Shown in pieces: positions 6,419 to 34,747 of a stretch of DNA of 64,000 nt. This DNA is from Bosea sp. 685 (GTDB taxonomy: Bacteria > Pseudomonadota > Alphaproteobacteria > Rhizobiales > Beijerinckiaceae): assembly GCF_031884435.1 (NCBI RefSeq), contig NZ_CP134779.1, positions 2,294,001-2,358,000 of the forward strand, written 5' to 3'. How positions within the stretch are numbered: position 1 is the stretch's first letter; each line of letters opens with the position of its first letter. The position numbers and the translations under genes were made by a program. The notes beneath the pieces were generated by a model that ran no database searches, was not told where the DNA came from, and saw only the letters and a list, made by a program, of their open reading frames with translations.

Positions 6419-6469
6419 TTCCTTGACGTTGCGGCCGCTCGTTATGACGGCCTGAGCTGGGCGGCTGCT

Positions 6470-18043: not shown

Positions 18044-18094
18044 CTGGCTCCCGGAGCAGGATTCGAACCTGCGACCAATCGATTAACAGTCGAT
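18044..18094. repeat. attL: displaced 3' part of tRNA-Asn
   Basis: Fifty-one bases identical to 34697-34747, covering the tRNA from the anticodon stem-loop to the CCA end plus one base. The remaining 5' part is missing here, so this copy is not a functional tRNA. It marks the left crossover end of the element, next to the integrase gene. Confidence 0.93.
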
Positions 18095-18217
18095 CCCGTT
18101 CTGATAGCGCCAGACAGTGCGAGATTTTCAAAGATTGTGAAAAAGAAGCCTTTTCAACGTCATACGCGTTCTCGTTGTGTCACTCGCATTCTTTCGATTG
18201 CGCTCTAGCGCATGCAG

Positions 18218-18247
18218 GCGTACCTTTTAGGTGCGAAATAGGTACGC
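18218..18247. promoter_or_regulatory. Possible integrase arm-binding sites, left end
   Basis: gcgtacc (18218-18224) and its inverse ggtacgc (18241-18247) are separated by 16 bases, just before the integrase gene. The same CGTACCT sequence occurs twice, 11 bases apart, near the right end (34630-34648). Presence at both ends suits arm-type integrase sites; the left pair could also be an operator of int. Confidence 0.45.
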
Positions 18248-18261
18248 AAATGGGAGCGCGG

Positions 18262-19530
18262 ATGCCACGGGTGAAGCTGACGGACAGGTTCTGCTCTGGC
18301 GTGAAGTCGACTGGCGCCCAGGTGGATTATTACGACGAGCAGGAAGCTGGGCTATTCCTACGCGTGTCCGCCCAGCGCAAGGCGTGGGGGTTGCTGTTCA
18401 CCCGCCCCAGTGACGGTAAGCGCGCTCGAACTACGTTCGGCAGCTACCCGTCGATGACGTTAGCCGCTGCTCGTGGTCGCGTGATCGAATTGCGGTCGGG
18501 TCTGGACGAAGGACAGGACGCGAGCGCCAAGGTCCGCGAGATCAAAAGCGGAGTTTCCGACGGCGAACTCACGCTGAAGCAGTTGGGTGCCCTGTTCCTC
18601 GCCGATCGTCGCCAGCGGGGCAGGAGGACCGCCGACGAAATGGAGCGCGCCCTAAAGATCGACATCTATCCCGTGATCGGTTCTATCGCCGTCCAGAAGC
18701 TCAAGCGCATAGATCTTTCCCGCGTTACCGATCTGATCAAACAACGGGGAAGCACCGTCCAAGCGAACCGGGTCGCGGCCCTATTGAAGACGCTTCTGGC
18801 ATGGTCGGTCGATCAGGGACACCTTGAAACCGACCCCGGTTACCGATGGAAGCCGCCCAGCGAAATAGCCCCTCCGCGCGAGAGGGCGCTCTCCGCCTCG
18901 GAGATCAAGCAGCTTTGGCACGGGCTCGAACAGGCCGACATGTCCAGATGGACGGTTGAACTCCTCCGGTTCTGCCTCGCGACCGCCTGCCGACAAGGAG
19001 AGGCGGGCGGCATGCTCAGAAGCGAGCTAGACCTTGAACAGGGGGTCTGGCACCTCCCGGCATCGCGATCGAAGAACAAGCGCCCGCATTCAGTCCCTCT
19101 ATCGCCGCTCGCCTTGGATGTACTGAACCGCGCGCTCACAGGGCATGAATTGCCGGCCGTTTTTCCCGGCGCTCGGGGCACACCGATCACGAACTCTGCT
19201 GTATCGCGCGCCGTTCAACGCTCTCAAAAGTCTCTTGGACTGGCACAATGGACGTCCCACGACTTGCGACGTTCGGCGGCGACGCACATGGCTGAATTAG
19301 GAATTTCTCCGTTCGATATCGGGCTGTGCCTCAATCACATCAGCACAACGCAGAAGTCCATTACGACCTCCACCTATGTGAAATACACGTTCGACAAAGA
19401 GAAGCGGGCCGCCCTGAGCCTTTGGGGCGAGAGGCTCGCGGCCATCGTCGCGGGCGACGCTGCCGACATCCTGCCACTGAACTCAGCGCGTCGCCGGTAC
19501 GGACTCAAGCGGAAGGCGCGGGCGGCATGA
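18262..19530 (+). CDS. int: Tyrosine-type site-specific integrase (P4/DUF4102 group)
   Basis: A 422-residue recombinase that would catalyse insertion and excision at tRNA-Asn. I use ATG 18262 with GGGAG 5 bases upstream. The N-terminus (KLTDRFCSGVKSTG to AAARGRVIELRSGLDEGQD) is the arm-binding DUF4102 domain; a SAM-like core-binding domain follows at about 100-190. The catalytic Arg is in ATACRQGEAGGM, the HxLRR box is WTSHDLRRSAATHMAE, a His lies in GLCLNHIS and the nucleophile is probably the first Tyr of TYVKYTFDKEKRAAL. It lies beside attL and overlaps the next gene by ATGA. Confidence 0.95.
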   Translation: MPRVKLTDRFCSGVKSTGAQVDYYDEQEAGLFLRVSAQRKAWGLLFTRPSDGKRARTTFGSYPSMTLAAARGRVIELRSGLDEGQDASAKVREIKSGVSDGELTLKQLGALFLADRRQRGRRTADEMERALKIDIYPVIGSIAVQKLKRIDLSRVTDLIKQRGSTVQANRVAALLKTLLAWSVDQGHLETDPGYRWKPPSEIAPPRERALSASEIKQLWHGLEQADMSRWTVELLRFCLATACRQGEAGGMLRSELDLEQGVWHLPASRSKNKRPHSVPLSPLALDVLNRALTGHELPAVFPGARGTPITNSAVSRAVQRSQKSLGLAQWTSHDLRRSAATHMAELGISPFDIGLCLNHISTTQKSITTSTYVKYTFDKEKRAALSLWGERLAAIVAGDAADILPLNSARRRYGLKRKARAA

Positions 19531-20168
19531 TCGACCTCGCGACCTTAAAGGGGAAGCGGACCGACCTGCGGGCACTTTTCCCAGCCCTCACAACCGACGA
19601 CGTCGCATTGGTTGATCGCGCACTTGGCGGGAACCGTAGTGGGTTCGTTGCGGCGGTCTGCTTTCAGGCCGATACGTTGTGGAGTGGAAGGCCGGGCGAA
19701 CCGCTGAAGGACGCGCAAGCGCGAATGGCGCGGATCGCAGCCGCAGCTCAAATCTTCGCAGACAACCTAGATGTGCTCGATGTCGCGCTGACTCTGCCGG
19801 ACGACACTGGCGACGCTGCTTTCACGAGGCCATCGGACCTACTCGTCTACATGAAGCTTCTGGCGTCCAGAGCTAACGCGCTTGCCACGGACAATCACAA
19901 ACTCAAGGTCGCGCGGTTTCAGGACCCAACCAAGCGGAAGCAGCGGGGAGTCACCCCTTCCTCTCTCATCACGCGACGCATGATCGCTGAATATTTCATT
20001 TGCCACGCCGAGTTGCCCATCCATGAGGGTAGCGATCTTCGGCGGTTGATCGAGATAGGGCACCTTGCAGCTGGCGTTGATGATCCGAGCGCATCGAACA
20101 TCGGCAACCTCGTTGCCGACTTCGCAAGCCGACAAGATAGGTCACCGGCCGATCCCTATCTAGAATAG
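19527..20168 (+). CDS. Hypothetical protein translated with the integrase
   Basis: A 213-residue soluble protein, mostly helical by composition, with no motif I recognise. Its ATG overlaps the integrase TGA (ATGA, 19527-19530), so it is made with the integrase. A basic patch DPTKRKQRG lies near residue 133. The position suggests an accessory recombination or control role, but nothing in the sequence proves it. Confidence 0.7.
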   Translation: MIDLATLKGKRTDLRALFPALTTDDVALVDRALGGNRSGFVAAVCFQADTLWSGRPGEPLKDAQARMARIAAAAQIFADNLDVLDVALTLPDDTGDAAFTRPSDLLVYMKLLASRANALATDNHKLKVARFQDPTKRKQRGVTPSSLITRRMIAEYFICHAELPIHEGSDLRRLIEIGHLAAGVDDPSASNIGNLVADFASRQDRSPADPYLE

Positions 20169-20228
20169 TCGCCGCAGAACGCGACCGACAGTGTCCGAAG
20201 CATTCCAACCTGATGGGAGTGCTTCAGC

Positions 20229-20447
20229 ATGACTGAGCTTGTCAAAGAACTCGAAGACCCTCGCACCGAACTCTTGACCGATTCTCAGATTGTCGCCGGC
20301 TGGCCGATCTCGCTGTCGACAATCGCGCGCCAGCGCCGTCTTGGCGCGTTCCCCGAGTCGGTGCGTATCGGCCGCCTCCGGCGCACTCGCCGCAGCGACG
20401 TCCTCGCCTACTTCACGCCCAAGCCCGCACGCCGCGCGGAGGGCTAG
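20229..20447 (+). CDS. AlpA/excisionase-like small DNA-binding protein
   Basis: A 72-residue protein with the short winged-helix pattern of AlpA/MerR-type excisionases: LLTDSQIVAGWPISLSTIAR followed by RRLGAFPESVRIGRLRRTRR and DVLAYF. Such factors bend attachment-site DNA for excision or activate the integrase promoter. It lies 60 bases after the integrase-linked gene and heads a run of small overlapping genes. Assignment rests on motif pattern and context. Confidence 0.75.
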   Translation: MTELVKELEDPRTELLTDSQIVAGWPISLSTIARQRRLGAFPESVRIGRLRRTRRSDVLAYFTPKPARRAEG

Positions 20448-20450
20448 ATC

Positions 20451-20669
20451 ATGGGCATCATCACTTGCCTCGCCCGCCTCTGCAGGGCGCATCGCCGCCC
20501 GGCCGCAGGGCCTCCCGAAACGATTGAGCCCCCGCCGGCGGCAACCGGCGAGGGGGGCGATAGCAAGCACTGGCATCAGGCCAAGGCCGCCCGCATCGCC
20601 CGCGCCGCCCGCGTCCGCATCGCGCTCGAGGGCTTCAATGCCGATCAGCGCCGGGAGGGCGGCCGGTGA
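20451..20669 (+). CDS. Hypothetical small protein
   Basis: Seventy-two residues with a Pro/Ala-rich middle and a basic helical second half (AKAARIARAARVRIALEGF). It starts 3 bases after the AlpA-like gene and its TGA overlaps the next gene's GTG, so it lies inside a tightly packed operon. No family is recognised and it may only have a structural or coupling role. Confidence 0.5.
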   Translation: MGIITCLARLCRAHRRPAAGPPETIEPPPAATGEGGDSKHWHQAKAARIARAARVRIALEGFNADQRREGGR

Positions 20670-21046
20670 ATGCTAGTGACCGTCTGCAGCGGTGCCGGTG
20701 GTTTCGCCAGCTGATCGAGGACGTCGAAGCGACCGGGATAACTGACCCGCTCGCGCAGATGGACGCTGTCGGCACGCGGTGCGGCGTGGATTCTGCCCGG
20801 ATCGTCTTTGCCGCAGGCGTGGTCAGCGTTGATTGGGCATGGGCCGAAGAGAGAAGTCTGCGGAGCCGGTTCGTCCAGATCACAAGCGCGTCGCCTATGA
20901 TGTCCGCTCCTGGCCGCTACCAACGGTGCCGCGATGCTTTTGATGCGGCATTCAGAAGCTCGCTCGACGAGCTGGAAAGTGGGCTTCGGCTGTGGGCAGG
21001 GCGGAACCGGCTCGAGGATGCTCCGTTTGAGGAGCCGCGCCGATGA
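20666..21046 (+). CDS. Hypothetical protein of the replication operon
   Basis: A 126-residue soluble protein, probably starting at GTG 20666 with GGGAGG at 20652-20657. It overlaps its neighbours on both sides (GTGA at 20666-20669, ATGA at 21043-21046), strong evidence for real translation. It is acidic and tryptophan-rich in the middle and end, with no motif I can name. Its place directly before the putative initiator gene suggests an accessory replication role. Confidence 0.6.
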   Translation: MNASDRLQRCRWFRQLIEDVEATGITDPLAQMDAVGTRCGVDSARIVFAAGVVSVDWAWAEERSLRSRFVQITSASPMMSAPGRYQRCRDAFDAAFRSSLDELESGLRLWAGRNRLEDAPFEEPRR

Positions 21047-22449
21047 ACACGAGTTCTTGGCCCATCCGGTCCGGCCCGGCCGTCATAGCTTGGCGGGCGG
21101 CGGCGCAGCGCCGGAATGAGGCGAAGCGGGCGCTGCTGCATCATCGCCAGACCGGGACACCGGTGGACGTTGTGGGCGCACTGGCGGTCGGTGCAGAGGC
21201 CAATGCACGCGCACCGCGGGGCCGCTATCCGGGGAAGGGCGGTCGCTACACTAGGTGGCCAGGCAACAACCATGTCGAACTCGCGCGCTGGGCGGAAGAG
21301 GCTGGGCTAGGTCGGTTCGGTGCAGACGACCCGGACATCTGCATAGCCGTCCGAGAAGCAGGAAGCGGCCGAAGCATCGGCCCCGAAGAAGCCGGCCGGC
21401 TGCTCGGTTTGACCGCAGAGATCCGCGACTTGCGCGGCATCCGAACCATGGAGTCGATCGACGAGACAAAGGCGGAGCGTGAGGATCGCCGCGCCCTCGA
21501 GCGTGCAGCGAAGGATGCTGTCCGGAAAGAGGCCGTCCGCAGAGCGGAGGGTGCGATCCCGCGGGCAAAGAGCAAGGCCGCGCTGAAACCATGGGCCGTG
21601 CAGGGCAAATCCAAGGCGACGTATTACCGGCACCTGCGTGAGACGAATTCGTCCGCAAAACCCATTGCTGCTGAGACAGATCCGTCCGGTGAGACGAATT
21701 CGTCCGCACCTCCTAGAGCCCTTAATAATATAGGATGTGCGGACGAAACTGTCTCACGGCAGAAAGAGGCTGCGCCGACGTCGCACGAGCAGCGCGCCGT
21801 CGTCGAGACCGGCCCCAGCCAGACAACAAGATCTCTTGGCGATGGAAAGAGGGCGCCAAAGACCGTCAGGTCGAAAAAGAGAACGGGCGACCTTGGCCGA
21901 CCGTTGCCGGAGGAGCCATCGCCCTTGATGGAGAGGTCGGCGGAGCCGGCCCAAGCCGATGACATCCGCGCCGGCTCGACGGCTTCCCTGACCCCGTCGA
22001 CTGCGGTCTTTCCTGAACCCGACAGAGTCGAGGATCTGCACGCGCGCGCGGGCGAGGTGGCGGCGTCCGCTACTGGCCTGCCTGACCTGTTCGGATCGCT
22101 GCCGCTGCCGGTCCCATGTGCCCGCCCGCAGCGCTCTAGAACGTCCGCTGGAAAGTCAGCAGGCGCGGGCGTGCAGCACTCGCTTTTCGGCGAGGAGTCT
22201 TCGCGCGATCATATGTTCCGTGGCGTCAACTTCTTCTGCGGCGTCGAGCTCGGTGCTATGTTCCAGGTGTTGGGCGAAGGCGACGCGGTTCGTGGCCGCG
22301 AACTGGCGATGCTGCTGCCTCTAGCCCGGCTCAGGGTGCTGGCAGAGGCCCTTGGAGAGGGCGGCGTCGATCGGTGCGGACATCTGATCATGCTTGCGAG
22401 GCGAGCGGCGCATACGGCGGAGGCGAAGGCCATGGGAGCAGCACGATGA
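21043..22449 (+). CDS. Putative replication initiator containing iteron-like repeats
   Basis: A 468-residue protein with a basic, Ala/Arg-rich N-terminal half, a helical segment with KPWAVQGKSKATYYRHLRE at about residues 184-202 that looks like a helix-turn-helix, a long low-complexity linker and a compact C-terminal domain (from about 385). Four repeats of a 19-base motif and an AT-rich stretch lie inside the gene at 21639-21756, the arrangement known from lambda O-type initiators. The repeats also encode RETNSSA twice. No helicase or primase motifs are visible. Function is inferred from this internal origin-like DNA and the operon context. Confidence 0.55.
   Translation: MNTSSWPIRSGPAVIAWRAAAQRRNEAKRALLHHRQTGTPVDVVGALAVGAEANARAPRGRYPGKGGRYTRWPGNNHVELARWAEEAGLGRFGADDPDICIAVREAGSGRSIGPEEAGRLLGLTAEIRDLRGIRTMESIDETKAEREDRRALERAAKDAVRKEAVRRAEGAIPRAKSKAALKPWAVQGKSKATYYRHLRETNSSAKPIAAETDPSGETNSSAPPRALNNIGCADETVSRQKEAAPTSHEQRAVVETGPSQTTRSLGDGKRAPKTVRSKKRTGDLGRPLPEEPSPLMERSAEPAQADDIRAGSTASLTPSTAVFPEPDRVEDLHARAGEVAASATGLPDLFGSLPLPVPCARPQRSRTSAGKSAGAGVQHSLFGEESSRDHMFRGVNFFCGVELGAMFQVLGEGDAVRGRELAMLLPLARLRVLAEALGEGGVDRCGHLIMLARRAAHTAEAKAMGAAR
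21639..21756. repeat. Iteron-like cluster with AT-rich stretch, candidate replication origin
   Basis: Two identical 19-mers TGAGACGAATTCGTCCGCA (21639-21657, 21690-21708), one degenerate copy (21672-21690) and one inverted copy (21738-21756, TGAGACAGTTTCGTCCGCA on the minus strand). cttaataatatagga at 21721-21735 separates copies three and four. The identical copies contain the palindrome GACGAATTCGTC. All lie inside the coding frame of the putative initiator. Confidence 0.65.
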
Positions 22450-23027: not shown

Positions 23028-23029
23028 AC

Positions 23030-24415: not shown

Positions 24416-24901
24416 ATGGGAACCAGCGATTACACCGAGAGCACAATAGTGATTGCCGTCCTTTTGGTTGGGACATTGCTGGCCTTGGCGCTCTCCTTCT
24501 ACGCCCTTCGCTGGGCAGTTCAGTGGTTGCATCAGAGTTTTCATCAGTTCAGGGATCATCTGAAGACACTTCCTGAAGCGAAGAAGCTGTCGAATTTAGC
24601 GATACCGGTGATCGTGGTGATGTTGATCGCAGCAATGCTTCCGTGGCCGTATTTTTACTACCAGATCCTGCGCCTTGCTTGCTTTGGGATCGTGATTTGG
24701 CTGCTTTGGCATGACTGGCGGCCTACGCTTGCGCACTTCACGCTCGCGATGATCGGTGTGCTGTACAACCCACTCGTACCAATCCATCTCACGCGGGAGA
24801 TCTGGTCGGTGCTCAACCCGCTAACGGTCATTGCGTTCGTGTGGTTCTGGTGGTCCACCCTACGTCCGGCAACTCGGGTCAAAGACCCGGCGCCGAGCTG
24901 A
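24416..24901 (+). CDS. Hypothetical four-helix membrane protein (DUF6804-like)
   Basis: A 161-residue inner-membrane protein with about four hydrophobic helices (residues 12-32, 62-80, 85-115, 132-150). The central part (PYFYYQILRLACFG, VLYNPLVPIHLTREIW) resembles the DUF6804 family. A GGGAGG lies 6 bases before the ATG. It starts the cargo segment between the 48-bp direct repeats and is followed by another small membrane protein. Function is unknown. Confidence 0.7.
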   Translation: MGTSDYTESTIVIAVLLVGTLLALALSFYALRWAVQWLHQSFHQFRDHLKTLPEAKKLSNLAIPVIVVMLIAAMLPWPYFYYQILRLACFGIVIWLLWHDWRPTLAHFTLAMIGVLYNPLVPIHLTREIWSVLNPLTVIAFVWFWWSTLRPATRVKDPAPS

Positions 24902-24944
24902 GACCAGCCGAAGCTCATCATCGCTGGAGGAAGGCACGCGCCTT

Positions 24945-25319
24945 ATGATCCTGACAGTCGTCATGTTTGTGGGGTGCTTCCTTACGGCAGTGGTAGCGAT
25001 CACCATCCCGTTGCAACTGATATCGGAAGTGAGATCGCCTTGGCTGTTGCTGGTGATCGTGCCGCTTGGTCTCGCGTTGCAAAACTGGCTCTTATCGCCC
25101 GAAACACATAAGACCCCGTGGTTCAGGAGCTCGGTTCTGAACGTGCTTACCGTAGCGAGCCTTGTGGTCGGCATGTTCGCCGTCCTGAGGATGGATCGCA
25201 AAATCCGAGACGAAGCAGCCATGACGCGTAGGGAGGCGGAGGTAGAGAGGTGCGTAGGTCGAGCGCTACTCGACGGTAAGAGACCAGCAGTCGCAAGACG
25301 TCTCTGCTCCGAAGACTAA
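24945..25319 (+). CDS. Hypothetical small membrane protein
   Basis: A 124-residue protein with three hydrophobic helices (residues 1-25, 30-48, 62-80) and a charged cytoplasmic C-terminal tail with four cysteines or nearby basic residues (MTRREAEVERCVGRALLDGK). It starts 43 bases after the DUF6804-like gene; GGAGG lies rather far upstream (24926-24930). No family recognised. It could work with its membrane neighbour. Confidence 0.6.
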   Translation: MILTVVMFVGCFLTAVVAITIPLQLISEVRSPWLLLVIVPLGLALQNWLLSPETHKTPWFRSSVLNVLTVASLVVGMFAVLRMDRKIRDEAAMTRREAEVERCVGRALLDGKRPAVARRLCSED

Positions 25320-25455
25320 GATCGCGACCGGGCTGTCCCGACTGCCCGCGGTCGGCGGGGGTGATGAGCCGCTCTGGAGTCCTCCAGCGGCTTGGGGCCG
25401 TCGGGGGTAGGTAGGTGCCGAGATTATCGCCAATTCCGCTCGGCAGGCGTCTTTT

Positions 25456-25471
25456 TATAATCGACATTATA
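25456..25471 (+). promoter_or_regulatory. Probable promoter -10 element inside a palindrome
   Basis: TATAAT-cgac-ATTATA is a perfect 6-base inverted repeat 23 bases before the AT-rich cyclase-like gene. TATAAT is a consensus -10; the -35 (ttccgc, 25434-25439) is weak. The symmetry could also be a repressor site. Confidence 0.4.
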
Positions 25472-25494
25472 GTTATGGATATGGAGGATTATGA

Positions 25495-26319
25495 ATGGCA
25501 AGGCACCTGCCAAAGAAGCGCGCTCTAGCTTTTATCGATTTTCTTGGGTTCCGTTCAAAAATAGAACAGATGCCAAGGAATGTAGAAATATATGAATTGA
25601 TAAAAGAGAATCTAAATGAAATTAAGAGCGATCTCGTTCAGCGAAAATCTACGCAACTTTCGAGTCCTGAGCTTGGTAGATTTGGTGGTTATTATTACCC
25701 GCTTGAAGCTACTCAATTTTCTGACAGTCTCGTTTTATCTGTCGAGCCCAAGGCCGCTGGCGTAGAAACTTTGATTGAAATAGTCGGCTCGTTGTCTGAT
25801 CGGCTGCTGATGAAAGGATTGTTTATTAGGGGCGGGATAGCGCTTGGGTGGGCTTATCATGAAGAGAATATAGTATTTGGAAAAGCGATGAATGATGCAT
25901 ATGATATTGAGAGTAAGAAGGCGATATTTCCGCGGGTAGTGATAGATGATTTAATATTTAAAAAAATACCTGACTGGTGCAAGGAAATGAATATATCTCG
26001 TGATAATGATGGATTGCTGTATATTAAGCCGTTTACAAATCTTATAGAAATAAAAGGAAATGTTATCGCGATTCCCGATTGTCAGCAACTTGCCGATGCG
26101 CGAATTCAGATTAAGAAATCTTTATCATCTGCAAAAAATAATCCAAAAGTATATGCTAAATATCATTGGCTTGGCACCAAATTCGACGAGCACATAGCCG
26201 AGTGCCGACAAGTTTGGCGCTTTTCAGCTTCGGACGTGGAAATGATATTTGCGCACGAATCAACTGGTCGGAACCGCACAAGGAAAAAGCGGGTGCCACC
26301 GTCGCCAATAACGAGCTGA
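25495..26319 (+). CDS. AT-rich cargo gene with class III nucleotidyl-cyclase-like motifs
   Basis: A 274-residue soluble protein with GGAGG 7 bases before ATG 25495. The order of motifs follows class III cyclases: Asp15 in FIDFLGF and Asp77 in FSDS as the two metal ligands, then IRGGIALGWA (111-120) and FGKAMNDAYDIES (128-140), which resembles the RxGIxxG and GxxxNxAxxLE strand-helix of cyclases with Asn133 kept and the usual Arg absent. Pycsar phage-defence cyclases use this fold. Base use is foreign: 25921-25980 has 22 G+C of 60. No cyclic-nucleotide-binding effector is evident. Recognition is by motif only. Confidence 0.6.
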   Translation: MARHLPKKRALAFIDFLGFRSKIEQMPRNVEIYELIKENLNEIKSDLVQRKSTQLSSPELGRFGGYYYPLEATQFSDSLVLSVEPKAAGVETLIEIVGSLSDRLLMKGLFIRGGIALGWAYHEENIVFGKAMNDAYDIESKKAIFPRVVIDDLIFKKIPDWCKEMNISRDNDGLLYIKPFTNLIEIKGNVIAIPDCQQLADARIQIKKSLSSAKNNPKVYAKYHWLGTKFDEHIAECRQVWRFSASDVEMIFAHESTGRNRTRKKRVPPSPITS

Positions 26320-26488
26320 CCTACCGCGCAAAGATCGGCGACTCGCCGTATAGCGCAACCTCGATGCTCATCCTACCTTGCCATCGTTCTTCGTAGCCTG
26401 CATTACGCACCGCGCGCGACCTCGACCAGCGCGCCTGCAGATTTGGGCTGCTGCAGACCTTCGCCTGTTCCGAGGGCGAGGTCAGCCA

Positions 26489-26536
26489 GCGGCCCTGCGG
26501 ATGGCGCGAGCGGTTGTCGTCTGAATTTTACGAGGC
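26489..26536. repeat. 48-bp direct repeat, copy B, right of cargo segment
   Basis: The right partner of 24273-24320 (44 of 48 bases identical). It lies 170 bases after the cyclase-like gene in the 300-base gap before the next gene, where I see nothing else coding. Confidence 0.7.
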
Positions 26537-26619
26537 TATTGCCACCGCATCGGTCCGCTCATCGAGACAGACTGAGTTAGAACGGACCTTTCAGGCAGTT
26601 ATGAGTGACCGAGCAAAAG

Positions 26620-27192
26620 CTATTGGGCATCGTCCCTGCGCCGGTGCTTTCGAAACGTCTGCCTAAGCCACCCGGTCAATCGGCCGAAGCTGCCAGAGTG
26701 AACCAAGTGGGCCGGGATGAGGGCGCCTTGGCAAGCCGCAAGCATCTCTTGGCCTGCCACCGTTTCCGCCGTGAGCTGGTGTTCAAAAAAGTCGATGGCA
26801 TCTGGTTGTTCGAGCGCACCTTGAGTGCGGACCAATTTTAGATGAGCGTCGACTACGGCCGGTGGAAGCATGAGCGTCTGAGAGCGTACAGATGACGTCA
26901 GTGCTTCCTGCGCCGCATTGTAAGTCAGGCGTGCTTGTTGGCTTTCGAGAACCGGCCTCGACTGCCTGAGCGACCAGAACACTTGGAAACACGCGTCTCG
27001 ACTGGTCTCCGCTTTGGCAAGAACATCGACCATGGCCGATCGTCGGTGTTCGAATAGCTTCTCTTCCCATGATTGGCGGGCTGAGAAGATGCGAGAACGT
27101 TCGGCCACCGCAAAATTGATGATTCCGGCCAGAAGCACACCTGCTAAAGCCGATCCCGCAGTAAGGAGGGGAGTCCATGACGGATCAAGCAC
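26620..27192 (-). CDS. Hypothetical membrane-anchored protein
   Basis: A 190-residue protein, GTG start at 27192 with GGGAG 8 bases upstream on the minus strand. One hydrophobic helix at residues 7-29 anchors a helical cytoplasmic domain (RSRIFSARQSWEEKLFEHRR, DVLAKAETSRDACFQVFWSL). The architecture, short TM plus coiled helices, is common in small island proteins. It is convergent with the cyclase-like gene. I do not recognise the family. Confidence 0.6.
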   Translation of the reverse strand: MLDPSWTPLLTAGSALAGVLLAGIINFAVAERSRIFSARQSWEEKLFEHRRSAMVDVLAKAETSRDACFQVFWSLRQSRPVLESQQARLTYNAAQEALTSSVRSQTLMLPPAVVDAHLKLVRTQGALEQPDAIDFFEHQLTAETVAGQEMLAACQGALIPAHLVHSGSFGRLTGWLRQTFRKHRRRDDAQ

Positions 27193-27354
27193 TGCTGAAC
27201 TCCCTTTGCCAAACGGCTAACGTACAACTACCGCCGCACCGCTTTGTCTGGCCAGCCCCGCCCGCCCGCGAAATCAGCCGCAGCGTGGCGATGGAATCCG
27301 TCGGCATTACCGGCGCGGTGTAGTGCGCCGTTTCAAATGGCAATGACGAAGGAT

Positions 27355-28074
27355 TCAAATGGCAGCAGATCGAGATTTCCTCGCGTCGCGCACAACGGCT
27401 TTCTTGAACGCTGGATTCTCGCGGATCGCCCCCCGGATGGGCGCGTCGCCAAGAGGTCCAACCCACTGGCCGTGGCGAGCAACGCTGAGGTTCATTACGA
27501 GCCGGGCTAGGTTGATTATCAGATCATGCGCTTCCCCGGCTTCGTCTAGCGCGTCAGCAAAATCCGCTGCGCCATAGAAATCGCCTTCCTCAACCACCGT
27601 CCCAAGATCGTTGCTGCTGAAGGTGCCGTGTATGAGATAGGCGGCGATATCCGCATTCGCCTTTTTCGCATGCTTTGGTCGCAGCAGAACTAACCGATCA
27701 TCGTCATCGATCGGCCGAGCCCAAAGTCCATGGGCAAAATCATTTCGCCGATCTCGGTGCGGCCGCAGTGCGTTGACCGCCAGTCTCACTATCGAAGCGT
27801 CAGTCGGCTCCAACTTCAATTCCGCTAGCCGAACGATCGCTGCGTCTTGATTTGGCCCCCCGCGCGCGCTCAAGCTTTCCAACAGAACCATCGCGGTGTC
27901 GATTTCCGATCCGCTCAAGCTGGCGAGGATCGTCGCCCAATGGTGGTCGATGGCCGCTGCAAATCCCATAACGGCAACGACCTTAATGGCCGCGTCCGGC
28001 ATGGCGCTAAATACACCTGGTCCGGTGATGTAGCCGTGCAAAAGCCTGCGATCCGAGGAGCTTTTCTTACTCAC
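27355..28074 (-). CDS. Hypothetical protein with HEPN-like RNDFAH motif
   Basis: A 239-residue soluble helical protein, probably GTG-started at 28074. Residues about 105-117 read RPHRDRRNDFAHGLWA, which contains the R-N-x3-H (Rx4H) motif that marks HEPN nucleases and related helical bundles. HEPN proteins often act as RNases in toxin or phage-defence systems, but inactive family members share the pattern. No antitoxin-like MNT partner is adjacent. Function is tentative. Confidence 0.55.
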   Translation of the reverse strand: MSKKSSSDRRLLHGYITGPGVFSAMPDAAIKVVAVMGFAAAIDHHWATILASLSGSEIDTAMVLLESLSARGGPNQDAAIVRLAELKLEPTDASIVRLAVNALRPHRDRRNDFAHGLWARPIDDDDRLVLLRPKHAKKANADIAAYLIHGTFSSNDLGTVVEEGDFYGAADFADALDEAGEAHDLIINLARLVMNLSVARHGQWVGPLGDAPIRGAIRENPAFKKAVVRDARKSRSAAI

Positions 28075-28164
28075 GTGCTGATCACCACCTCCCGCACCTG
28101 TTGCGCGTTTCCCGCGCTATCGCGACCATCGGCCTGCCCGTGTTCAAGCTGTAGAGGGTGCGTA

Positions 28165-28515
28165 TCAGCGCGAGGTCTTGATGGTCTTGGGCTTGTCGAA
28201 GCGCTCTCGGAATTCGTCGATGGCTTCTTCGAATCTGTTGAAGCCTTCGTTTCTCATCCGGGCGGCAAATCCCCTGCTTCGCTCAGTTCCGACAATGGCC
28301 GACCAAAAGTAGTGAACCATCCCTTTCGCGTCCCGCTCGTTCAAGCGCATGCGGGTCAGACGAACCCCGGCCTTAAGCTCCGCTGATGCAGTTGGAGAAG
28401 CCAGAACCGGGTTGAAAACTCGCTCGTCAAGAAACGCCATGATGTCAGATTCCGTTGTCACCACCCGATCCTCCAACCTGCGCCGGCGCTCCACCGGCCT
28501 TGGCTCGGCAAACAT
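28165..28515 (-). CDS. Conserved hypothetical protein, third gene of the SOS-box operon
   Basis: A 116-residue soluble protein. The core DERVFNPVLASPTASAELKA, GVRLTRMRLNERDAKGM and FWSAIVGTERS through NEGFNRFEEAIDEFRERF is evenly charged and looks like a compact helical domain; I recall similar uncharacterised proteins in mobile DNA. It starts 24 bases after the 28540-28788 gene, so it probably shares the promoter that carries the LexA-type box. An internal ATG (MAFLDERV) is an alternative start. Confidence 0.6.
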   Translation of the reverse strand: MFAEPRPVERRRRLEDRVVTTESDIMAFLDERVFNPVLASPTASAELKAGVRLTRMRLNERDAKGMVHYFWSAIVGTERSRGFAARMRNEGFNRFEEAIDEFRERFDKPKTIKTSR

Positions 28516-28539
28516 GCTGCCCTGCCATGCCCCTCTATA

Positions 28540-28788
28540 TCAATCGAAGTCCTGAAGTCCGGCACGGCCCCAACCGCTCGGGTCACGTTTGCCTTCGTCA
28601 ACGGCGGCGTTGAGCTGTTGGAGTGTGAGACCGACACTATCGTTGAGTGCTTGCAGCGCGACATAGATTGTCGTCCCGAGCGGGATCTCGCCGGACCAGC
28701 GCCGAATTTCATGCTGGAAAGCCAGCGTCGTCTTGCGCATTTCGTGGGCCCTGAACGGGTCCATGCTCCGCTTGGATCTCTGGACCAT
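28540..28788 (-). CDS. Hypothetical small protein, second gene of the SOS-box operon
   Basis: Eighty-two residues, basic N-terminus (MVQRSKRSMDPFRAHEMRKT), then a mixed domain with LGTTIYVALQALNDSVGLTL. Start and stop overlap by one base with the upstream gene (TGATG at 28786-28790). No family recognised. The coupling and shared upstream LexA-type box suggest DNA-damage-linked expression. Confidence 0.55.
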   Translation of the reverse strand: MVQRSKRSMDPFRAHEMRKTTLAFQHEIRRWSGEIPLGTTIYVALQALNDSVGLTLQQLNAAVDEGKRDPSGWGRAGLQDFD

Positions 28789-28997
28789 CAATCCTCCTCC
28801 CGCCGTGCGCTGCTCGAAAATAGGCCTCGCAAATATCCATGCGAGACCGAGCGATCGGCGTCCGCCAGCAGCACGGTCATGTCGTGCAGCACCGCCCGCA
28901 ACGCCGCGCGTTCACTGCCATGCTCTGCGATGAGATCGTCGATCTCGCATTCGAGCTCGGTCGCCGGGTCCGTATCTTCAAGCCGCTCCGCTGCCAT
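28788..28997 (-). CDS. Hypothetical small acidic protein, first gene of the SOS-box operon
   Basis: Sixty-nine residues from ATG 28997, with GGAGG 8 bases upstream (MAAERLEDTDPATELECEID). The protein is acidic and helical. A GTTC-N7-GTTC box ends 23 bases upstream of the start. Function unknown; the regulation is the informative part. Confidence 0.6.
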   Translation of the reverse strand: MAAERLEDTDPATELECEIDDLIAEHGSERAALRAVLHDMTVLLADADRSVSHGYLRGLFSSSARREED

Positions 28998-29019
28998 ATC
29001 CTGCGCCCTCCGGAACTGA

Positions 29020-29034
29020 GAACGTACAGAGAAC
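29020..29034 (-). promoter_or_regulatory. LexA/SOS box of the alphaproteobacterial type (GTTC-N7-GTTC)
   Basis: On the minus strand the bases read GTTC TCTGTAC GTTC, an exact match to the direct-repeat LexA operator of Alphaproteobacteria. It lies 23 bases before the first of three small leftward genes, where it would block their promoter until DNA damage. No other exact match was noticed in the element. Confidence 0.7.
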
Positions 29035-29192
29035 ATATGCCGAGATCGAGTCAACCCGTTGCGGCGTACCGGCTGTGAGAGATTTCGGGGAGAACGGCGG
29101 TATTCGCCTTGCGTCAATACGCCCTTCGAGATTGTCTGCCGGACCGGCAAGCTGAGCTAACCCGTTGTCGAGCACGGACTGGAGCATAGGCA

Positions 29193-30194
29193 ATGTCTTC
29201 TAGGGTCGACTTCCCAGGTGTCGAAATAGGGAACGCACAGGTGATGGCGCAAAGTGCCAGCCACTACCTGACGCACTACGACATCGCTGTGCACCGAGTT
29301 ATGGCCGTGCGCGGTAAGAACGAGATACTAGGTCAGACGCCCAATGTCTGTCGCTTCTGTTCCCGGACTGTGCCGGCTGTGACATTCTGCAAAGAGGCGC
29401 ACGCAGTGCCCGAGCTTGCCGGCAACGGTACGCTGATCAGCCTCTATGAATGCGACGAATGCAACGCGCGTTTCGCGAAGTTCGAAGACGACCTCGGCAA
29501 AATGACGCTGCTTGAGCGATCCGCCGGACAAGTTCTCGGTAAGCGCGGCGTTCCGTCCGTCACAACGGGGCAAAAGTCGCGTATCGACATGGGTACCAGC
29601 GGCTTCCTGATTCAAGAGCACGAGGGAGACCCTATCGCCGCTATCGATCAGGACAAAAAGACGCTGACGGTAACAATTGCTCCGCAAGCATATCGGCCAC
29701 TCGGTGCGTACAAAGCACTTGTAAAAATCGCTTTGACCCTCATGGCCGAAGGCGATCTTGCCAAGGTTCCTGAGGCGGTGCAGTGGCTGCGGGAAAACGA
29801 CCTTGCAACCAGCCAAGTCACTGACTGTACCGGTTATAGCTGCGTGCGCGGTTGGACGCCGGGCCCTCTGCCTATTGCGCAGACAACAGTGATGCTGCTG
29901 CGTCGGAAACCGAGCTTCCAAGCCGGGCCCGCTTACGTAATGCTGCTAGCTTTCGGAAACATGTCTTTCCAAATCGTCATTCCTGCGCCGCAGGAAGACG
30001 CCATAATTGTCGGCAAACCGATCACGATATGGCCTATTCCCGTCTTCGCTTTTCTGGAGGCGGACAGGGCTCGCGGTCCGACCCGCTTCTGGTTGAGAAG
30101 CCTTGCCTCACCAGCGCCGGAGAAAGGTGCGCCGAGCATCGTGTTTAATTTCGAAAGCATAGTCGAAGTGCCCCCCGGCGCGTCGGCGGCTTGA
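29193..30194 (+). CDS. HNH-endonuclease-domain protein
   Basis: A 333-residue protein with GGAG 8 bases before ATG 29193. Residues about 53-98 form an HNH/treble-clef zinc site: CRFCSRTVPAVTF, then KEAHAVPELAGNGTLISLYE and CDECNARFAKFEDDLGK, giving CxxC...H...GN...CxxCN. The C-terminal 200 residues are a separate domain of unknown type, far larger than phage packaging HNH proteins. A homing, restriction or defence nuclease is possible. It is divergent from the SOS-box operon. Confidence 0.7.
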   Translation: MSSRVDFPGVEIGNAQVMAQSASHYLTHYDIAVHRVMAVRGKNEILGQTPNVCRFCSRTVPAVTFCKEAHAVPELAGNGTLISLYECDECNARFAKFEDDLGKMTLLERSAGQVLGKRGVPSVTTGQKSRIDMGTSGFLIQEHEGDPIAAIDQDKKTLTVTIAPQAYRPLGAYKALVKIALTLMAEGDLAKVPEAVQWLRENDLATSQVTDCTGYSCVRGWTPGPLPIAQTTVMLLRRKPSFQAGPAYVMLLAFGNMSFQIVIPAPQEDAIIVGKPITIWPIPVFAFLEADRARGPTRFWLRSLASPAPEKGAPSIVFNFESIVEVPPGASAA

Positions 30195-30395
30195 GCGGAA
30201 CGCTGGAGTTGCGGGGCTGGCAGTCCGCGTTCGGCTGGATCGTGTTGGGGTTCCGGTTTCGATCCCCTGCGACTAGTGAAGCTTCCGCTTTTCGGCCTTG
30301 ACCGCGCGACGCGCACGGCGATTAAGTTCCGGCGGGGGAGTTGGCGGAACCACGACGACGCCCGGCGGTTGAGCGCTGATAAGGCGCGCGCCGCC

Positions 30396-30575: not shown

Positions 30576-30727
30576 GTAGCGACCTCTGGTGATCACCCAT
30601 CAATCTCGTAGATATCTCCGCAATCGGCGTCGTCCCGCACGCGCTTGAAGGAGACGAAGCCGGCCCAGCGAGTTAAAGCCGCATTCAGATCCCGGGCCCC
30701 AAGCTGCGAGTATCTTTTGCTAGAAAT

Positions 30728-30895
30728 TCATGAGCTTTTCACGCAGATAAAAGCAACTCCATTAAGTCGATTTTCGCGATTGATCAGCACTGACTGCGAT
30801 GCCGCTGCTTGGCATGACTGAATACTGTCAAATTGCCCAATGAGCGTATTGGCGGTGCCGGGTATCATAAATGTAATAAGAACGAGAGCGAACAT
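30728..30895 (-). CDS. Small secreted protein
   Basis: Fifty-five residues. GGGAG lies 8 bases before ATG 30895 on the minus strand. The start MFALVLITFMIPGTANT is a short signal peptide; the mature peptide of about 38 residues has two cysteines (QSCQAAAS and FICVKSS) that could pair, as in other tiny exported proteins with a Cx(n)FxCV pattern. Transcribed alone, function unknown. Confidence 0.55.
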   Translation of the reverse strand: MFALVLITFMIPGTANTLIGQFDSIQSCQAAASQSVLINRENRLNGVAFICVKSS

Positions 30896-31538
30896 GGCTG
30901 ATCTCCCAAAATTTCTTTCACGCCGCTAATGCAGCAGCCGGATATTTCCAAATAAATTGGACTGCGGCAAGCGGGAGCCGAGATCGCGCCACGCGAGGAC
31001 ATCGCAGGGGAGGAAGTGCTTGCGTGGAATACTTCTTGGTTCGGCCGAGAACTGATGCTCGCCATCGAGATTTGGGATCGCCTCATGATGACGCGACGCG
31101 GTGGGACCGGTGAGGCTCTTCTGGGGCCTCTGGCTCCAGCACAGCCTCAACAGCCTCATCTTCGCTGATTACATTCTGCGAATGGTCAGTTTAGTTCGCT
31201 CCAAGGCATGAGGCCGAGATCAGTGCCTGTCACGCGACACGGCCTTCAATCATGATCCGGCGGACGACTTCCGTCTGCGTCATGGCGGCGTTTCCTATTC
31301 AAACGGTTCGGGCTGGCGGTCACGCCCGTTTGAATTCCGCCTCATCGAAAGCCCCGTGTGGATAGGGCCCCGTTGATTGTTTCGATGCGCGACCCGTTTG
31401 AATAACGGCGCCGGAATTCAACCGGGCCTCGAATGCAAATTTCCCAGCCCGGCCCCAGGAAAAAAACGGCGCGCATGTGACCCCGTGCGGTGGCGCGGTC
31501 CTCGAGTGCGCCGCCTGCTTTCGCCCCCCCGGGTCTGG
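30896..31538. other. Gene-poor stretch with coding remnants and motif cluster
   Basis: No complete gene is supported. On the minus strand 30926-31085 carries a plausible C-terminal fragment (PRKHFLPCDVLAWRDLGSRL, ending NIRLLH) without a matching beginning, and 31232-31285 a 17-codon frame MTQTEVVRRIMIEGRVA behind a good ribosome site. These look like decayed genes. The right part holds the ATTCAAACGG cluster described separately. Confidence 0.35.
31297..31425. repeat. Cluster of four ATTCAAACGG motifs in alternating orientation
   Basis: attcaaacgg at 31297-31306, its inverse ccgtttgaat at 31326-31335 and 31394-31403, and a one-mismatch direct copy attcaaccgg at 31416-31425. All lie downstream of the capsid operon in noncoding DNA. 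Possible regulator, replication or packaging site. Confidence 0.5.
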
Positions 31539-31787
31539 TCATTGGAGGTCGACGGTGGGGGCGCTGGGCTCGTCGGCGAGGCGCGACGCCTTCGTCGTGA
31601 CCTCCTCGATGATGCGGTCCCGCCGGGCCAGGATCTCGGCGATCCATTGCACGCGCTGATGGGGGCCGATGTCGGGAAGTTCGCCGAGTTCGTCGTCGAT
31701 GCGGCGGGCAAGGGCCTGATCGACGTGGGCGGCCACGATGGCCTTCATCCTGGCCGTTGCGTCGGTGGTGTCGGCTGTCTGAGTCAT
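31539..31787 (-). CDS. Hypothetical small protein, last gene of the capsid operon
   Basis: Eighty-two residues from ATG 31787 with GGAAGGA upstream (MTQTADTTDATARMKAIVAA). Helical and charged: HVDQALARRIDDELGELPD and WIAEILARRDRIIEEVTTKA. Its ATG overlaps the previous stop (ATGA 31784-31787). It could be a small scaffold or structural accessory, but no homologous family is recognised. Confidence 0.55.
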   Translation of the reverse strand: MTQTADTTDATARMKAIVAAHVDQALARRIDDELGELPDIGPHQRVQWIAEILARRDRIIEEVTTKASRLADEPSAPTVDLQ

Positions 31788-32020
31788 GGGGTTGTCCTTC
31801 CGTGAAGACCGAGAATGTGAGGGCCTCGGCTGCGCCAGCCGCGAAGCCACTCCGCGGTCTTGGCAAGTTCAGCGGCACGGCGCGCAGGAGAGGCGCGCTC
31901 CGCCGAGAGGCGTTGCTCGGCCCGGCGCATGGCGTCAGCGGCGATGGCATCAAAGTGGCCATCCACGGCCGCAGCGCTGCCGGGCGGCGGCGCGATCTTG
32001 GGGCGCCTCCGGAACCTCAT
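31784..32020 (-). CDS. Hypothetical small basic protein of the capsid operon
   Basis: Seventy-eight residues from ATG 32020: basic N-terminus MRFRRRPKIAPPPG, then an amphipathic helix AIAADAMRRAEQRLSAERAS. It overlaps both neighbours by 4 bases (ATGA), so it belongs to a translationally coupled chain. Function unknown. Confidence 0.55.
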   Translation of the reverse strand: MRFRRRPKIAPPPGSAAAVDGHFDAIAADAMRRAEQRLSAERASPARRAAELAKTAEWLRGWRSRGPHILGLHGRTTP

Positions 32021-32232
32021 GGTCGACGCTCCATCACCGGCGCCCGCGGGGCGTCGGGAGCCGCACGGTCGCGCCATACCCGCAACTCGCGTCGGATCCC
32101 CGCCAGTGCGCCGGCAACCTCATCGGGGCCGATGCGGCGGACGTTGAGTTGCCGGCGCTGGCGGAGCCGGGCTTCGGCGATGAGGCTGTCCAACCGAGCC
32201 TCGATGTCGTCGAACAGTGCCGGCGCGATCAT
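32017..32232 (-). CDS. Hypothetical small helical protein of the capsid operon
   Basis: Seventy-one residues (MIAPALFDDIEARLDSLIAE and RRIGPDEVAGALAGIRREL). Predicted mostly helical and basic. ATGA overlaps at 32017-32020 and 32229-32232 link it to its neighbours. No family recognised. Confidence 0.55.
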   Translation of the reverse strand: MIAPALFDDIEARLDSLIAEARLRQRRQLNVRRIGPDEVAGALAGIRRELRVWRDRAAPDAPRAPVMERRP

Positions 32233-32528
32233 GGCTTCGTCCGTCCGGTCTTGACGGCTGCGAGCTTGGCCTCGAGCTCGGCGAGCTTTGCTTCAAGCGC
32301 TTGGATGCGGTCGCTGTTCCACTTCGTTTGAACGGTCTCGGCTGCGTGAAGTCCAACCACGAAACTGAACGGCGCAGGCGCGTGGCGCTCGGATTTGCCC
32401 AGCCCCTTGTCCGCATTGTCCAACATCCACGAAGCGAGCCGGTCACCCTCGTGAAGGCGCACGGCCTTCCTCTCGTCAGCGTCCAGATGAGCAGGGAATT
32501 TCTTGATCTCGAACTCGGCGTTCGTCAT
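32229..32528 (-). CDS. Hypothetical coiled-coil protein of the capsid operon
   Basis: Ninety-nine residues. The C-terminal third is a clear heptad coiled coil (DRIQALEAKLAELEAKLAAV). The N-terminal part is charged (EIKKFPAHLDADERKAVRLH). It follows the capsid gene after 47 bases on the same strand. A coiled-coil next to a capsid gene could be a scaffold or assembly factor; this is a guess from position. Confidence 0.55.
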   Translation of the reverse strand: MTNAEFEIKKFPAHLDADERKAVRLHEGDRLASWMLDNADKGLGKSERHAPAPFSFVVGLHAAETVQTKWNSDRIQALEAKLAELEAKLAAVKTGRTKP

Positions 32529-32575
32529 CGCGGCAACCTCCGGAAATTTTGGGGGGATCAGGTCAGCGACCCGGA

Positions 32576-33703: not shown

Positions 33704-33745
33704 GTTGTCGCCTCCGATAATCGTGAGGCGACGGTGGCGGCCAGG

Positions 33746-34171
33746 CTACTCGGCAGCAACGAGCCTCAGCGGTTTCGGAGCCGAGACCATGTTCGGGTAG
33801 AGGCGCCAAAGGTTGCCTGATCGCTCAGATCGAAGGCACACCACCTTTGGCGTGAAGTCTGCACTCTGCGCGATGCGGGCGAGTTTGCAGCCCAAAACCT
33901 TCCCGCTTAGTCGGCCCCCGCAAGCAGCTTCGATTGCGACTCTGAGCGCGGGCACTTCGAAACGGGCGCGACGGATCGCCTCCGCCGAAGTGAAGGCCTT
34001 GTCGCCGTACTGCTCAGTCAGCGCGAGGATCAACTGCAGGTCAGGGGGAGGTCTGATGTTGATCTCGATTGCATCCACCCGGCTAGCGACCGACGAAATC
34101 GCAGCTAGGATTTTGGCGTCGTTCTCAAGCGAGCGGCGGAGCAGCGAGATGAAGGTGTCGAGATCAGCCAT
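33746..34171 (-). CDS. Hypothetical protein with winged-helix-like C-terminal region
   Basis: A 141-residue protein. The N-terminal 50 residues are helical (ISLLRRSLENDAKILAAISS). Residues about 55-140 (ALTEQYGDKAFTSAEAIRRA, GGRLSGKVLGCKLARIA, final strand NLWRLY) resemble the small winged-helix module at the C-terminus of some plasmid and phage replication or regulatory proteins. It overlaps the upstream gene by 8 bases and precedes the capsid gene by 42 bases, so it may regulate the operon. Confidence 0.55.
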   Translation of the reverse strand: MADLDTFISLLRRSLENDAKILAAISSVASRVDAIEINIRPPPDLQLILALTEQYGDKAFTSAEAIRRARFEVPALRVAIEAACGGRLSGKVLGCKLARIAQSADFTPKVVCLRSERSGNLWRLYPNMVSAPKPLRLVAAE

Positions 34172-34418
34172 GGGCCGCCTCCACCGGATCGGCGGTCTCA
34201 GCGAACGCAGCCGCCGTCATGACGGTTGCTCGGCTGAAGTCGCCAGCATCCCATAGCTGCCTGCTGGGCAGGGTGGTGACGAAGCTCGCTTTGGGGAACC
34301 CGGTTATCGCCCACGTCAGTACCCGACCGCTGGGCCGCCGCAGACGAAACCACCCACCAGCAACCGCACCCGGAAGGGCGACATTGGCATGCGGGAAAGG
34401 GGCGAGCGCGAGCGACAT
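34164..34418 (-). CDS. Hypothetical small protein, first gene of the capsid operon
   Basis: Eighty-four residues from ATG 34418 (a TTG precedes it directly): MSLALAPFPHANVALPGAVA, then a beta-rich stretch GWFRLRRPSGRVLTWAITGF. It starts the leftward run of seven genes that includes the capsid gene. No family recognised. In 34419-34656 I see no other secure gene; a 29-codon frame (34509-34598, TTG start) is only a possibility. Confidence 0.5.
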   Translation of the reverse strand: MSLALAPFPHANVALPGAVAGGWFRLRRPSGRVLTWAITGFPKASFVTTLPSRQLWDAGDFSRATVMTAAAFAETADPVEAAHG

Positions 34419-34629
34419 CAATAGACGGAATCACGCGGATTCGCGGGGCGCAAGGGAGCCTCTACAGCCGTTGCGCGGCAGCCGTTTCAGCGGAGGACGG
34501 TATTCATTTTGCCCGCGAAATCGCGCAAAACATCGGTGCAGGCCGTGATAGACGAGGCGAGATTCCTGGCCAACGCAGTCCGCATGCTCGAGGAATGACG
34601 CCGAATCCCCCAAGGTATTCAAGCGATCT

Positions 34630-34648
34630 GCGTACCTATGCCGTACCT
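34630..34648. promoter_or_regulatory. Possible integrase arm-binding sites, right end
   Basis: gcgtacct (34630-34637) and ccgtacct (34641-34648) are direct repeats with an 11-base period, one helical turn, 50 bases from attR. The same motif occurs as an inverted pair near the left end (18218-18247). Confidence 0.45.
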
Positions 34649-34656
34649 GGAAAGCG

Positions 34657-34689
34657 AAAAGGGCCCAGGCGATTTGCGCCTAAGCCCTT
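34657..34689 (-). terminator. Rho-independent terminator after tRNA-Asn
   Basis: On the minus strand the stem AAGGGC-tt-AGGCG pairs with CGCCT-gg-GCCCTT around the loop caaat and is followed by TTTT. It lies 8 bases after the tRNA 3' end and on the element side of attR, so the element supplies the terminator for the host tRNA gene. Confidence 0.75.
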
Positions 34690-34696
34690 GAAATGA

Positions 34697-34747
34697 CTGG
34701 CTCCCGGAGCAGGATTCGAACCTGCGACCAATCGATTAACAGTCGAT
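34697..34747. repeat. attR: tRNA-Asn 3' part supplied by the element
   Basis: Identical over 51 bases to attL (18044-18094). It completes the tRNA-Asn gene; identity stops at 34748, inside the anticodon stem. The crossover must lie somewhere in these 51 bases. Confidence 0.93.

Follow-up and report, generated by a model that had tools for sequence, protein, structure and literature searches.

An integrated element of Bosea sp. 685 raises the question of what a mobile island can do with a phage capsid gene when no partner genes for building or filling a head are recognisable beside it. The element lies in a stretch of 64,000 nucleotides (contig NZ_CP134779.1, positions 2,294,001 to 2,358,000), here called the window. 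An earlier note, made from the letters of the DNA, had taken it for a satellite that makes its own shell and borrows other helper functions, or for a prophage reduced to that state. An integrative, satellite-like element with its own capsid and no detected head or packaging partner is retained from that view; shell-making in the manner of the capsid-forming phage-inducible chromosomal islands (cf-PICIs) is not, as the capsid lacks even the scaffold domain of its relatives. The reading favoured here, to which we give about an even chance, is that the island is a phage satellite whose contribution is a capsid subunit without the coil, probably for small heads with the portal, terminase and tail of a helper phage.

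The island is bounded by an exact 51 bp repeat. Its right copy makes up the 3′ part of a tRNA-Asn gene that is intact (34698–34772, minus strand), and the left copy is without the 5′ part of the tRNA, although ARAGORN nevertheless calls a tRNA there. In a genome of the same genus that lacks the island (G573, locus L167), the left flank (90–98% identical to that of the window), a single 51 bp copy and the right flank (92%) are contiguous, and the island is therefore a precise insertion of 16,653 bp into tRNA-Asn. The basic features of a satellite are present, namely an integrase, an AlpA-type regulator (its match lies below the Pfam cut-off) and a specific attachment site. From left to right, the genes are an integrase, a 213 aa gene, an AlpA-type helix-turn-helix (HTH) gene, small open reading frames (ORFs), a 468 aa iteron gene, two genes of unassigned function, low-GC cargo, an HNH_5-like gene and the minus-strand capsid operon (Table 1). 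The tRNA-derived ends, inward integrase, AlpA-like factor and iteron-bearing gene described in the earlier note were all recovered.

The 375 aa capsid protein is the sole match to PF05065 in the host genome at E ≤ 0.001. Its AlphaFold (AF2) model has the HK97 fold (pLDDT 79.6, pTM 0.77), with the heads of Bxb1, D3, R4C and HK97 as the best matches in PDB and an encapsulin (9fy6) lower in the list. The phage family phrog_617 aligned with it only over positions 292–626 of 626. Among 193 phage records with a capsid match, three were opened (PAJU2, RHph_X2_26 and Escherichia vB_EcoS-705R7). These phages have the same capsid family, but as one protein consisting of a long N-terminal part and the capsid, encoded beside TerL and portal genes and annotated in the PAJU2 record as 'prohead protease fused capsid protein'. 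The window capsid is 52–57% identical to the three fusions, matching them only from about residue 292–303 on, and 55–65% identical to viral contigs. Fifteen of the 16 nearest viral contigs, a set that includes near copies, have a protease/scaffold part, the nearest of these fusions reaching 64% identity, and the remaining one (65%) begins inside the capsid gene. In a joint alignment the phage proteins show a coiled-coil stretch ahead of the shell part, and the start of the island protein falls just past the end of the coil; nine island capsids, including that of the window, begin at PAJU2 residue 272–299 of 667. By these alignments, the window capsid is an N-terminally shortened member of the protease-capsid fusion family.

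A scaffold or protease remnant hidden in other frames was rejected, the best tblastn match having an E value of 0.35 and the hidden Markov model (HMM) of the protease and scaffold giving no match. Whether residues 15–60 preserve the part of the scaffold that is bound to the shell (PDAR) was considered, but this is only a guess (hhalign probability 2%); MAFFT puts the HK97 scaffold/shell junction near residue 60 of the window capsid. The ratio of third to second codon-position differences is 1.8–2.4 between the window capsid and five phage contigs and 1.6–2.7 in three phage–phage pairs, a pattern as expected for a constrained protein, although most of the divergence may predate the cut. A plasmid search gave 28 records, all below 60% identity.

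The earlier note had seen no portal, terminase, tail or lysis genes, and the tblastn, HMM, PHROG and Pfam scans agreed. In the window island there was no tblastn match to TerL, portal or protease, and the custom protease and scaffold HMM was likewise empty; the same tblastn queries were positive in 10/10 controls. Neither tail nor lysis genes occurred in the PHROG or Pfam matches of the scanned island ORFs, the small ORFs being scanned in part. Ten island proteins scanned with PHROGs gave no match to connectors, which are short and variable, or to TerS, which is highly variable, and Pfam scans of 20 island ORFs gave no primase above the cut-off. The gene set of cf-PICIs comprises protease, portal, connectors, TerS, TerL and HNH, so that tails are all they take from a helper (PMC10690885). 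Like them (e.g., EcCIEDL933), the window island appears as an integrated satellite with its own capsid gene, but only the shell part of the capsid is kept, and protease, scaffold, portal and TerL were not found; the HNH_5-like gene is just under the cut-off and not beside the capsid. Because protease, portal and TerL were tested and not found, the island, as judged from its genes, fails the cf-PICI definition and is not filed there. TerL and portal as traits of an autonomous prophage were equally without a tblastn match. A true cf-PICI with portal, protease and terminase too divergent for detection is very improbable: many small ORFs of unassigned function could hide some genes, but no unassigned likely island gene is as large as portal or TerL, and the queries recognised every control.

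Similar loci occur in other genomes. Profile searches with island capsids matched 34/397 genomes of the order, 10/67 of the genus, 13/385 of the class and 21/398 of the phylum, counts that include ordinary prophages. The neighbourhoods of stronger matches with short open frames were fetched, together with prophages, and 16 islands were chosen for their score and the length of the open frame; the counts are floors, as the set leaves out the weaker matches as well as G622, G750, G847 and G878. These 16 loci, with a capsid but no protease/scaffold match, are the window, L044, L048, L049, L051, L098, L099, L100, L101, L103, L218, L219, L220, L223, L224 and L225, of which L220, L224 and L225 are outside the class. 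They were compared with ten full-phage loci (L046, L050, L056, L057, L059, L102, L104, L105, L157 and L221) by tblastn with three related phages (E ≤ 1e-3). TerL and protease were each found in 0/16 islands versus 10/10 controls, and the portal core in 1/16 (L098) versus 10/10; a C-terminal portal-associated domain alone was present in L044, L051, L103, L218 and L220. The protease and scaffold HMM, built from 15 fusions, matched 0/10 islands at E < 0.1 and 8/8 prophage loci at 1e-13 or better, four of these eight being in the training set and four not. In a later batch of eight loci, six were islands without an HMM match at E < 0.1.

An integrase is in view in 14/16 islands (11 by BLAST, three by Pfam); the contigs that carry L103 and L220 are only 4.7 and 9.9 kb long, with no integrase in view and only partial absences. 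Six of the seven AlpA candidates of other islands match Phage_AlpA or HTH_17 over the cut-off, and that of L101 matches nothing. Repeats of tRNA sequence bound L048 (47 bp, 10.5 kb), L098 (48 bp, 11.6 kb) and L100 (51 bp, 11.5 kb), weaker ones were found at L049 (15 bp) and L051 (16 bp), and none was found for L044 or L101. The start of capsid homology is not clear-cut in L223 and L225, and the capsid frame of L100 is open for 374 aa, where the gene finder called 233. The L098 island (3024–14676) is an 11.6 kb insertion at tRNA-Gln with a scaffold-free capsid and a portal, and no protease or TerL match. In L048, L100, L101, L103 and L223 a protein of 69–85 aa with an Arg-rich start, alike by eye, is encoded directly upstream of the capsid.

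The shortened capsids do not form one lineage. All trees omit L056 (for which a wrong ORF had been taken), L114 (a near copy) and L100; the second and third also omit the long-branch L101 and L102, and the third L121 (a near copy). Once the longest branches are removed, the tree nests the window capsid within the phage fusions (100/99), and five island capsids form a separate clade (100/99) apart from it. Forcing the eight island rows together was rejected with 24 rows (approximately unbiased test, p-AU 3e-8; 1.5e-8 without L098), and well-supported branches of this tree force at least three changes. The 31-row tree, which includes four long branches (L219, L223, L224 and L225), forces five changes (p-AU 2e-12). 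A single origin of the island capsids was accordingly rejected, and the trees show more than one origin for the shortened capsids. Gains and losses are not separable by change counts alone; around the window capsid the fusion is taken as ancestral, given that the protease and scaffold parts are homologous among its phage neighbours.

A sister island of about 17.7 kb occurs in G541, a genome of the same genus, at the same tRNA-Asn and beside the same tRNA-Cys and one flanking gene pair. Its integrase is 65%, its AlpA 62% and two further genes 70% and 39% identical to those of the window island. In the slot next to the tRNA it carries a scaffold-free capsid of another lineage, only 28% identical to that of the window, whereas the neighbours of the window capsid gene are similar to those in L044, where the capsid shows 32% identity. 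The contrast between G541 (a kindred island with another capsid) and L044 (kindred neighbour genes) makes it seem that the capsid was exchanged within a kept setting.

The preferred reading can be set out as a mechanism. The trigger would be a helper phage whose head is of the PAJU2/RHph_X2_26 type, either infecting the cell or being induced in it. The AlpA-type protein and the integrase would excise the island, the iteron gene would initiate its replication, and the capsid operon would supply the coil-less subunit. This would co-assemble with the full-length protease-scaffold-capsid protein of the helper on the helper portal. With fewer coils inside, a smaller shell would close, with room for about 17 kb but not for the helper genome; helper subunits in the mixed shell would keep the portal, and helper terminase and tail would complete the particle. 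The capsid lineage would change between sister islands because the subunit must, as proposed, fit the capsid lattice of the helper. The scaffold of HK97 and D3 consists of a coiled coil at the N-terminus and a part bound to the shell, capsid size correlates with coil length, and crowding of the coils may preclude smaller shells (PMC12749128); the coils also touch the portal (PMC10275583). With such crowding relieved, a coil-less subunit should favour small heads. A small coiled-coil gene beside the capsid was considered as a scaffold acting in trans. A small gene follows the capsid in most islands (the portal follows in L098 and a tape measure in L224), and in a home-made heptad test the pattern was strong in only four of nine downstream genes, including that of the window (≤3/200 shuffles), and not in the other five.

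Could the coil-less protein form a particle alone? A T=1-like, encapsulin-like shell packaging the island or a cargo is quite unlikely, since 16.7 kb would be too much DNA for a T=1 shell, the searches gave no portal or terminase through which DNA could enter, and the sequence is of the phage-head type. Encapsulins are HK97-fold shells of 60 copies (PMC12749128) and, as noted for 9fy6, one is among the structural matches of the capsid model; this likeness is one of fold alone.

Several observations weigh against the proposal of a helper-dependent satellite. Work on HK97 implies that uptake of the portal needs the scaffold (PMC10275583), so that a purely coil-less shell should lack a portal and the model needs helper subunits. 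Neither TerS nor a tape measure was recognised in the window island. The host genome is without a second capsid of this Pfam family, and phrog_2 places TerL there only at 3.75 and 4.55 Mb, in two loci judged by eye to be Mu-like and podovirus-like; phrog_2 found the capsid-adjacent TerL in control G358 and missed it in control G537. Across ten island genomes searched, it placed TerL on other contigs or more than 200 kb away, a weak result that adds little on its own. The standalone form of the capsid was seen in 0/15 judged viral contigs with the window capsid as query, and viral-contig scans with two other island capsids and with the 141 aa protein encoded before the window capsid, which reach close relatives only, were empty. 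Scans of genome contigs with the capsid and with the integrase likewise gave no useful lead. The integrase-linked locus L222 (9403–10761) keeps the coil and has no protease, TerL or portal-core match; it is a possible intermediate state. An integrase match was found in 50/67 genomes of the genus, and nine places with distant integrases (30–36%) held one full prophage and eight stretches without a capsid match, judged in the fetched stretch only and in some cases cut by contig ends. These nine are distant elements and not sisters. By the criterion of the earlier note, for which related islands mostly without the capsid operon would point to a chance remnant, the eight capsid-negative stretches count against the satellite view.

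The capsid-negative places, and the nested position of the window capsid among phage capsids, would suit a decayed prophage, that is, a phage reduced by deletion with the capsid as a chance leftover. This is unlikely: 15 other loci have a capsid without protease/scaffold and TerL, 13 of them with an integrase in view, and a relative sits at the same tRNA. The same parts are missing in many islands and in more than one lineage, the slot is filled by a capsid in the sister island, the window operon has good ribosome sites and overlapping downstream ORFs, and the codon pattern is that of a constrained protein, with the reservation given above. Since the same loss recurs in other islands, decay is the rival most weakened by the comparison.

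Some islands carry further particle genes. Among a chosen set of scanned proteins, tape-measure genes were found in at least six of the 16 islands, all small loci without TerL and portal core: L044 (4672–7926), L051 (5652–7967), L100 (5698–7533), L220 (5811–8300), L224 (10585–12882) and L225 (10936–12990). They appear to be tail-length rulers carried by satellites. In the same set, TerS was clear in L048 and weak in L101; the call in L225 is ambiguous, as an excisionase family is matched by that same gene. A wider proposal, which is possible but distinctly tentative, is that a polyphyletic class of satellites in this phylum brings 'rulers' for the helper particle and borrows portal, protease, TerL and the rest. 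The rulers would be the coil-less capsid (head size), often a tape measure (tail length) and sometimes TerS (packaging choice); head size would be set by dilution of scaffold coils, with no dedicated Sid/CpmB-type scaffold redirecting it. These genes also bear on a different role, in which the coil-less subunit is a dominant-negative poison that would enter and spoil the procapsids of invading phages, the island being retained for defence. Kinship with phage capsids, the lack of partner genes and the change of capsid in a fixed slot suit an arms race, and many satellites encode anti-phage defence (PMC11389934); tape measures in at least six of 16 islands, and TerS in some, suit particle building better, and the integrase in view in 14/16 also speaks against it. 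We consider an anti-phage capsid fairly unlikely.

P4-like satellites have features that include a P4-type primase and Psu/Sid; none of these had a Pfam match in 20 island ORFs, the small ORFs being scanned in part. The CpmA/CpmB proteins of SaPI1 and Sid of P4 are extra scaffold proteins acting on the capsid protein of the helper (PMC5644958, PMC10690885). The outcome, small heads from helper parts, is possibly the same, whereas the window island brings an altered capsid protein. Phage-inducible chromosomal minimalist islands (PICMIs) have the order int, overlapping gene (ATGA), alpA (PMC10803314), which is shared by the window island. The PICMI prototype has a fis site, a primase, six genes and no capsid gene, in contrast to tRNA-Asn, a capsid and no primase match here. 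A capsid is possible in some virion-encapsidated integrative mobile elements (VEIMEs) and tycheposons. Both are found integrated in marine bacteria and have been proposed to move between cells inside virions (PMC10803314), and the accessible part of a paper on Methylophilaceae tycheposons does not mention a capsid (PMC10872708). MulchRoom and MiniFlayer are satellites with their own head genes in a fuller set than that of the window island, with TerS, TerL, portal, scaffold and capsid (PMC10690885).

Satellites with a scaffold-free capsid were not described in the accessible parts of the open-access literature searched, which misses most subscription papers. The same loss in other islands suggests an undescribed way of building borrowed virus particles. 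Shrinking of helper heads by satellites is known for a few dedicated scaffold proteins. If the present reading is true, capsid genes that have repeatedly lost their own scaffold part would represent another path to small heads. They would also be a natural experiment on what determines the size of HK97-type shells, described in the D3 paper as scaffold-guided. A capsid gene without protease, TerL and usually portal could then mark a satellite, a gene set not expected by searches that demand the full head and packaging module of cf-PICIs.

Table 1. Features of the Bosea sp. 685 island, with positions in the window.
Feature	Position	Strand	Basis
Left attachment copy, 51 bp, 3′ fragment of tRNA-Asn	18044–18094	not assigned	exact match to 34697–34747
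Tyrosine integrase, 422 aa	18262–19530	+	PF00589 1.4e-22, PF13356 4.1e-13; 65% identical in G541 sister island
213 aa gene	19527–20168	+	ATGA overlap with integrase stop; no Pfam family
AlpA-type HTH protein	20229–20447	+	PF12728 HTH_17, E 2.9e-4, under curated Pfam cut-off; 62% in G541 island
Small ORFs of 72 and 126 aa that separate alpA from the iteron gene	20451–21046	+	no family above cut-off
468 aa iteron-bearing gene	21043–22449	+	iterons inside; partial relatives in 8/149 family genomes, own included
Iterons	21640–21755		21640 and 21691 exact; 21673 with 3 mismatches; 21740 (minus) with 3 mismatches
Two genes, 101 and 204 aa	22722–23644	+	common to sister island (70% and 39%)
Low-GC cargo: DUF6804 membrane protein, 274 aa protein, several minus-strand ORFs	24416–28997		PF20619 4.5e-14
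HNH_5-like protein	29193–30194	+	PF14279 3.8e-6, just below cut-off; phrog_26663 4e-37
Four small ORFs, 71, 78, 82 and 66 aa, ATGA-joined, distal operon end	31342–32232	−	
99 aa protein directly after capsid, C-terminal heptad stretch	32229–32528	−	30% match in L044 island
HK97-fold major capsid protein, 375 aa	32576–33703	−	PF05065 2.7e-21; phrog_617; fold model
141 aa protein directly before capsid	33746–34171	−	36% match at same place in L044; AF2 pLDDT 78.4
Intact tRNA-Asn including right attachment copy (34697–34747)	34697–34772	−	tRNA call and repeat

The operon around the capsid had been described as overlapping. A capsid gene in an operon is indeed present, but the overlaps are true of the distal genes only, with four ATGA junctions among the genes after 32232; about 45 bp lie between the capsid and the gene on either side, and GGAGG-type sites precede the capsid and the next gene. 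The model of the 141 aa protein shows a long helix and a winged-helix-like domain, with weak fold matches (none at E ≤ 0.001), making it a candidate DNA-binding regulator. The heptad score of the 99 aa protein was reached in 0/200 shuffles. The 71 aa ORF and the next ORF both match one single stretch of L044.

On the integrase side, the 213 aa gene is, from its position only, a candidate excision partner like the 'iolg' of PICMIs, and the AlpA-type protein a candidate excisionase or activator. The 468 aa gene is probably a replication-initiation gene, as suggested by its iterons. The iteron pattern has seven matches in the window versus 1.31 expected, and seven were reached in 0/100 shuffles; the pattern was derived from the two exact copies, and the test is biased in their favour. 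An exact LexA-type box, reported earlier as an SOS box, does exist at 29020–29034, but it is not significant: the window has three such boxes versus a chance mean of 1.52, and 16/100 shuffles reach three. SOS control was thus rejected as evidence, and the box supplies no support for prophage-like control.

The GC minimum of the cargo region is 0.515, and a PADLOC scan of ten cargo proteins gave no match at E ≤ 0.01. The 274 aa protein (25495–26319) resembles, by eye, class III cyclase-like domains, and neither Pfam nor PADLOC gave a match for it. The genus also has a second type of island, seen at L161, L162 and L164, with int, an overlapping gene, an HTH gene and a protein of 717–1092 aa that is virion-like by eye, with no capsid match; the large-protein genes are at L161:9016–11169, L162:7970–11248 and L164:7551–10814. 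Two cargo ORFs of the window island (27355–28074 and 28788–29150) have partial matches of 36% and 43% in L161, suggesting that cargo may move between islands.

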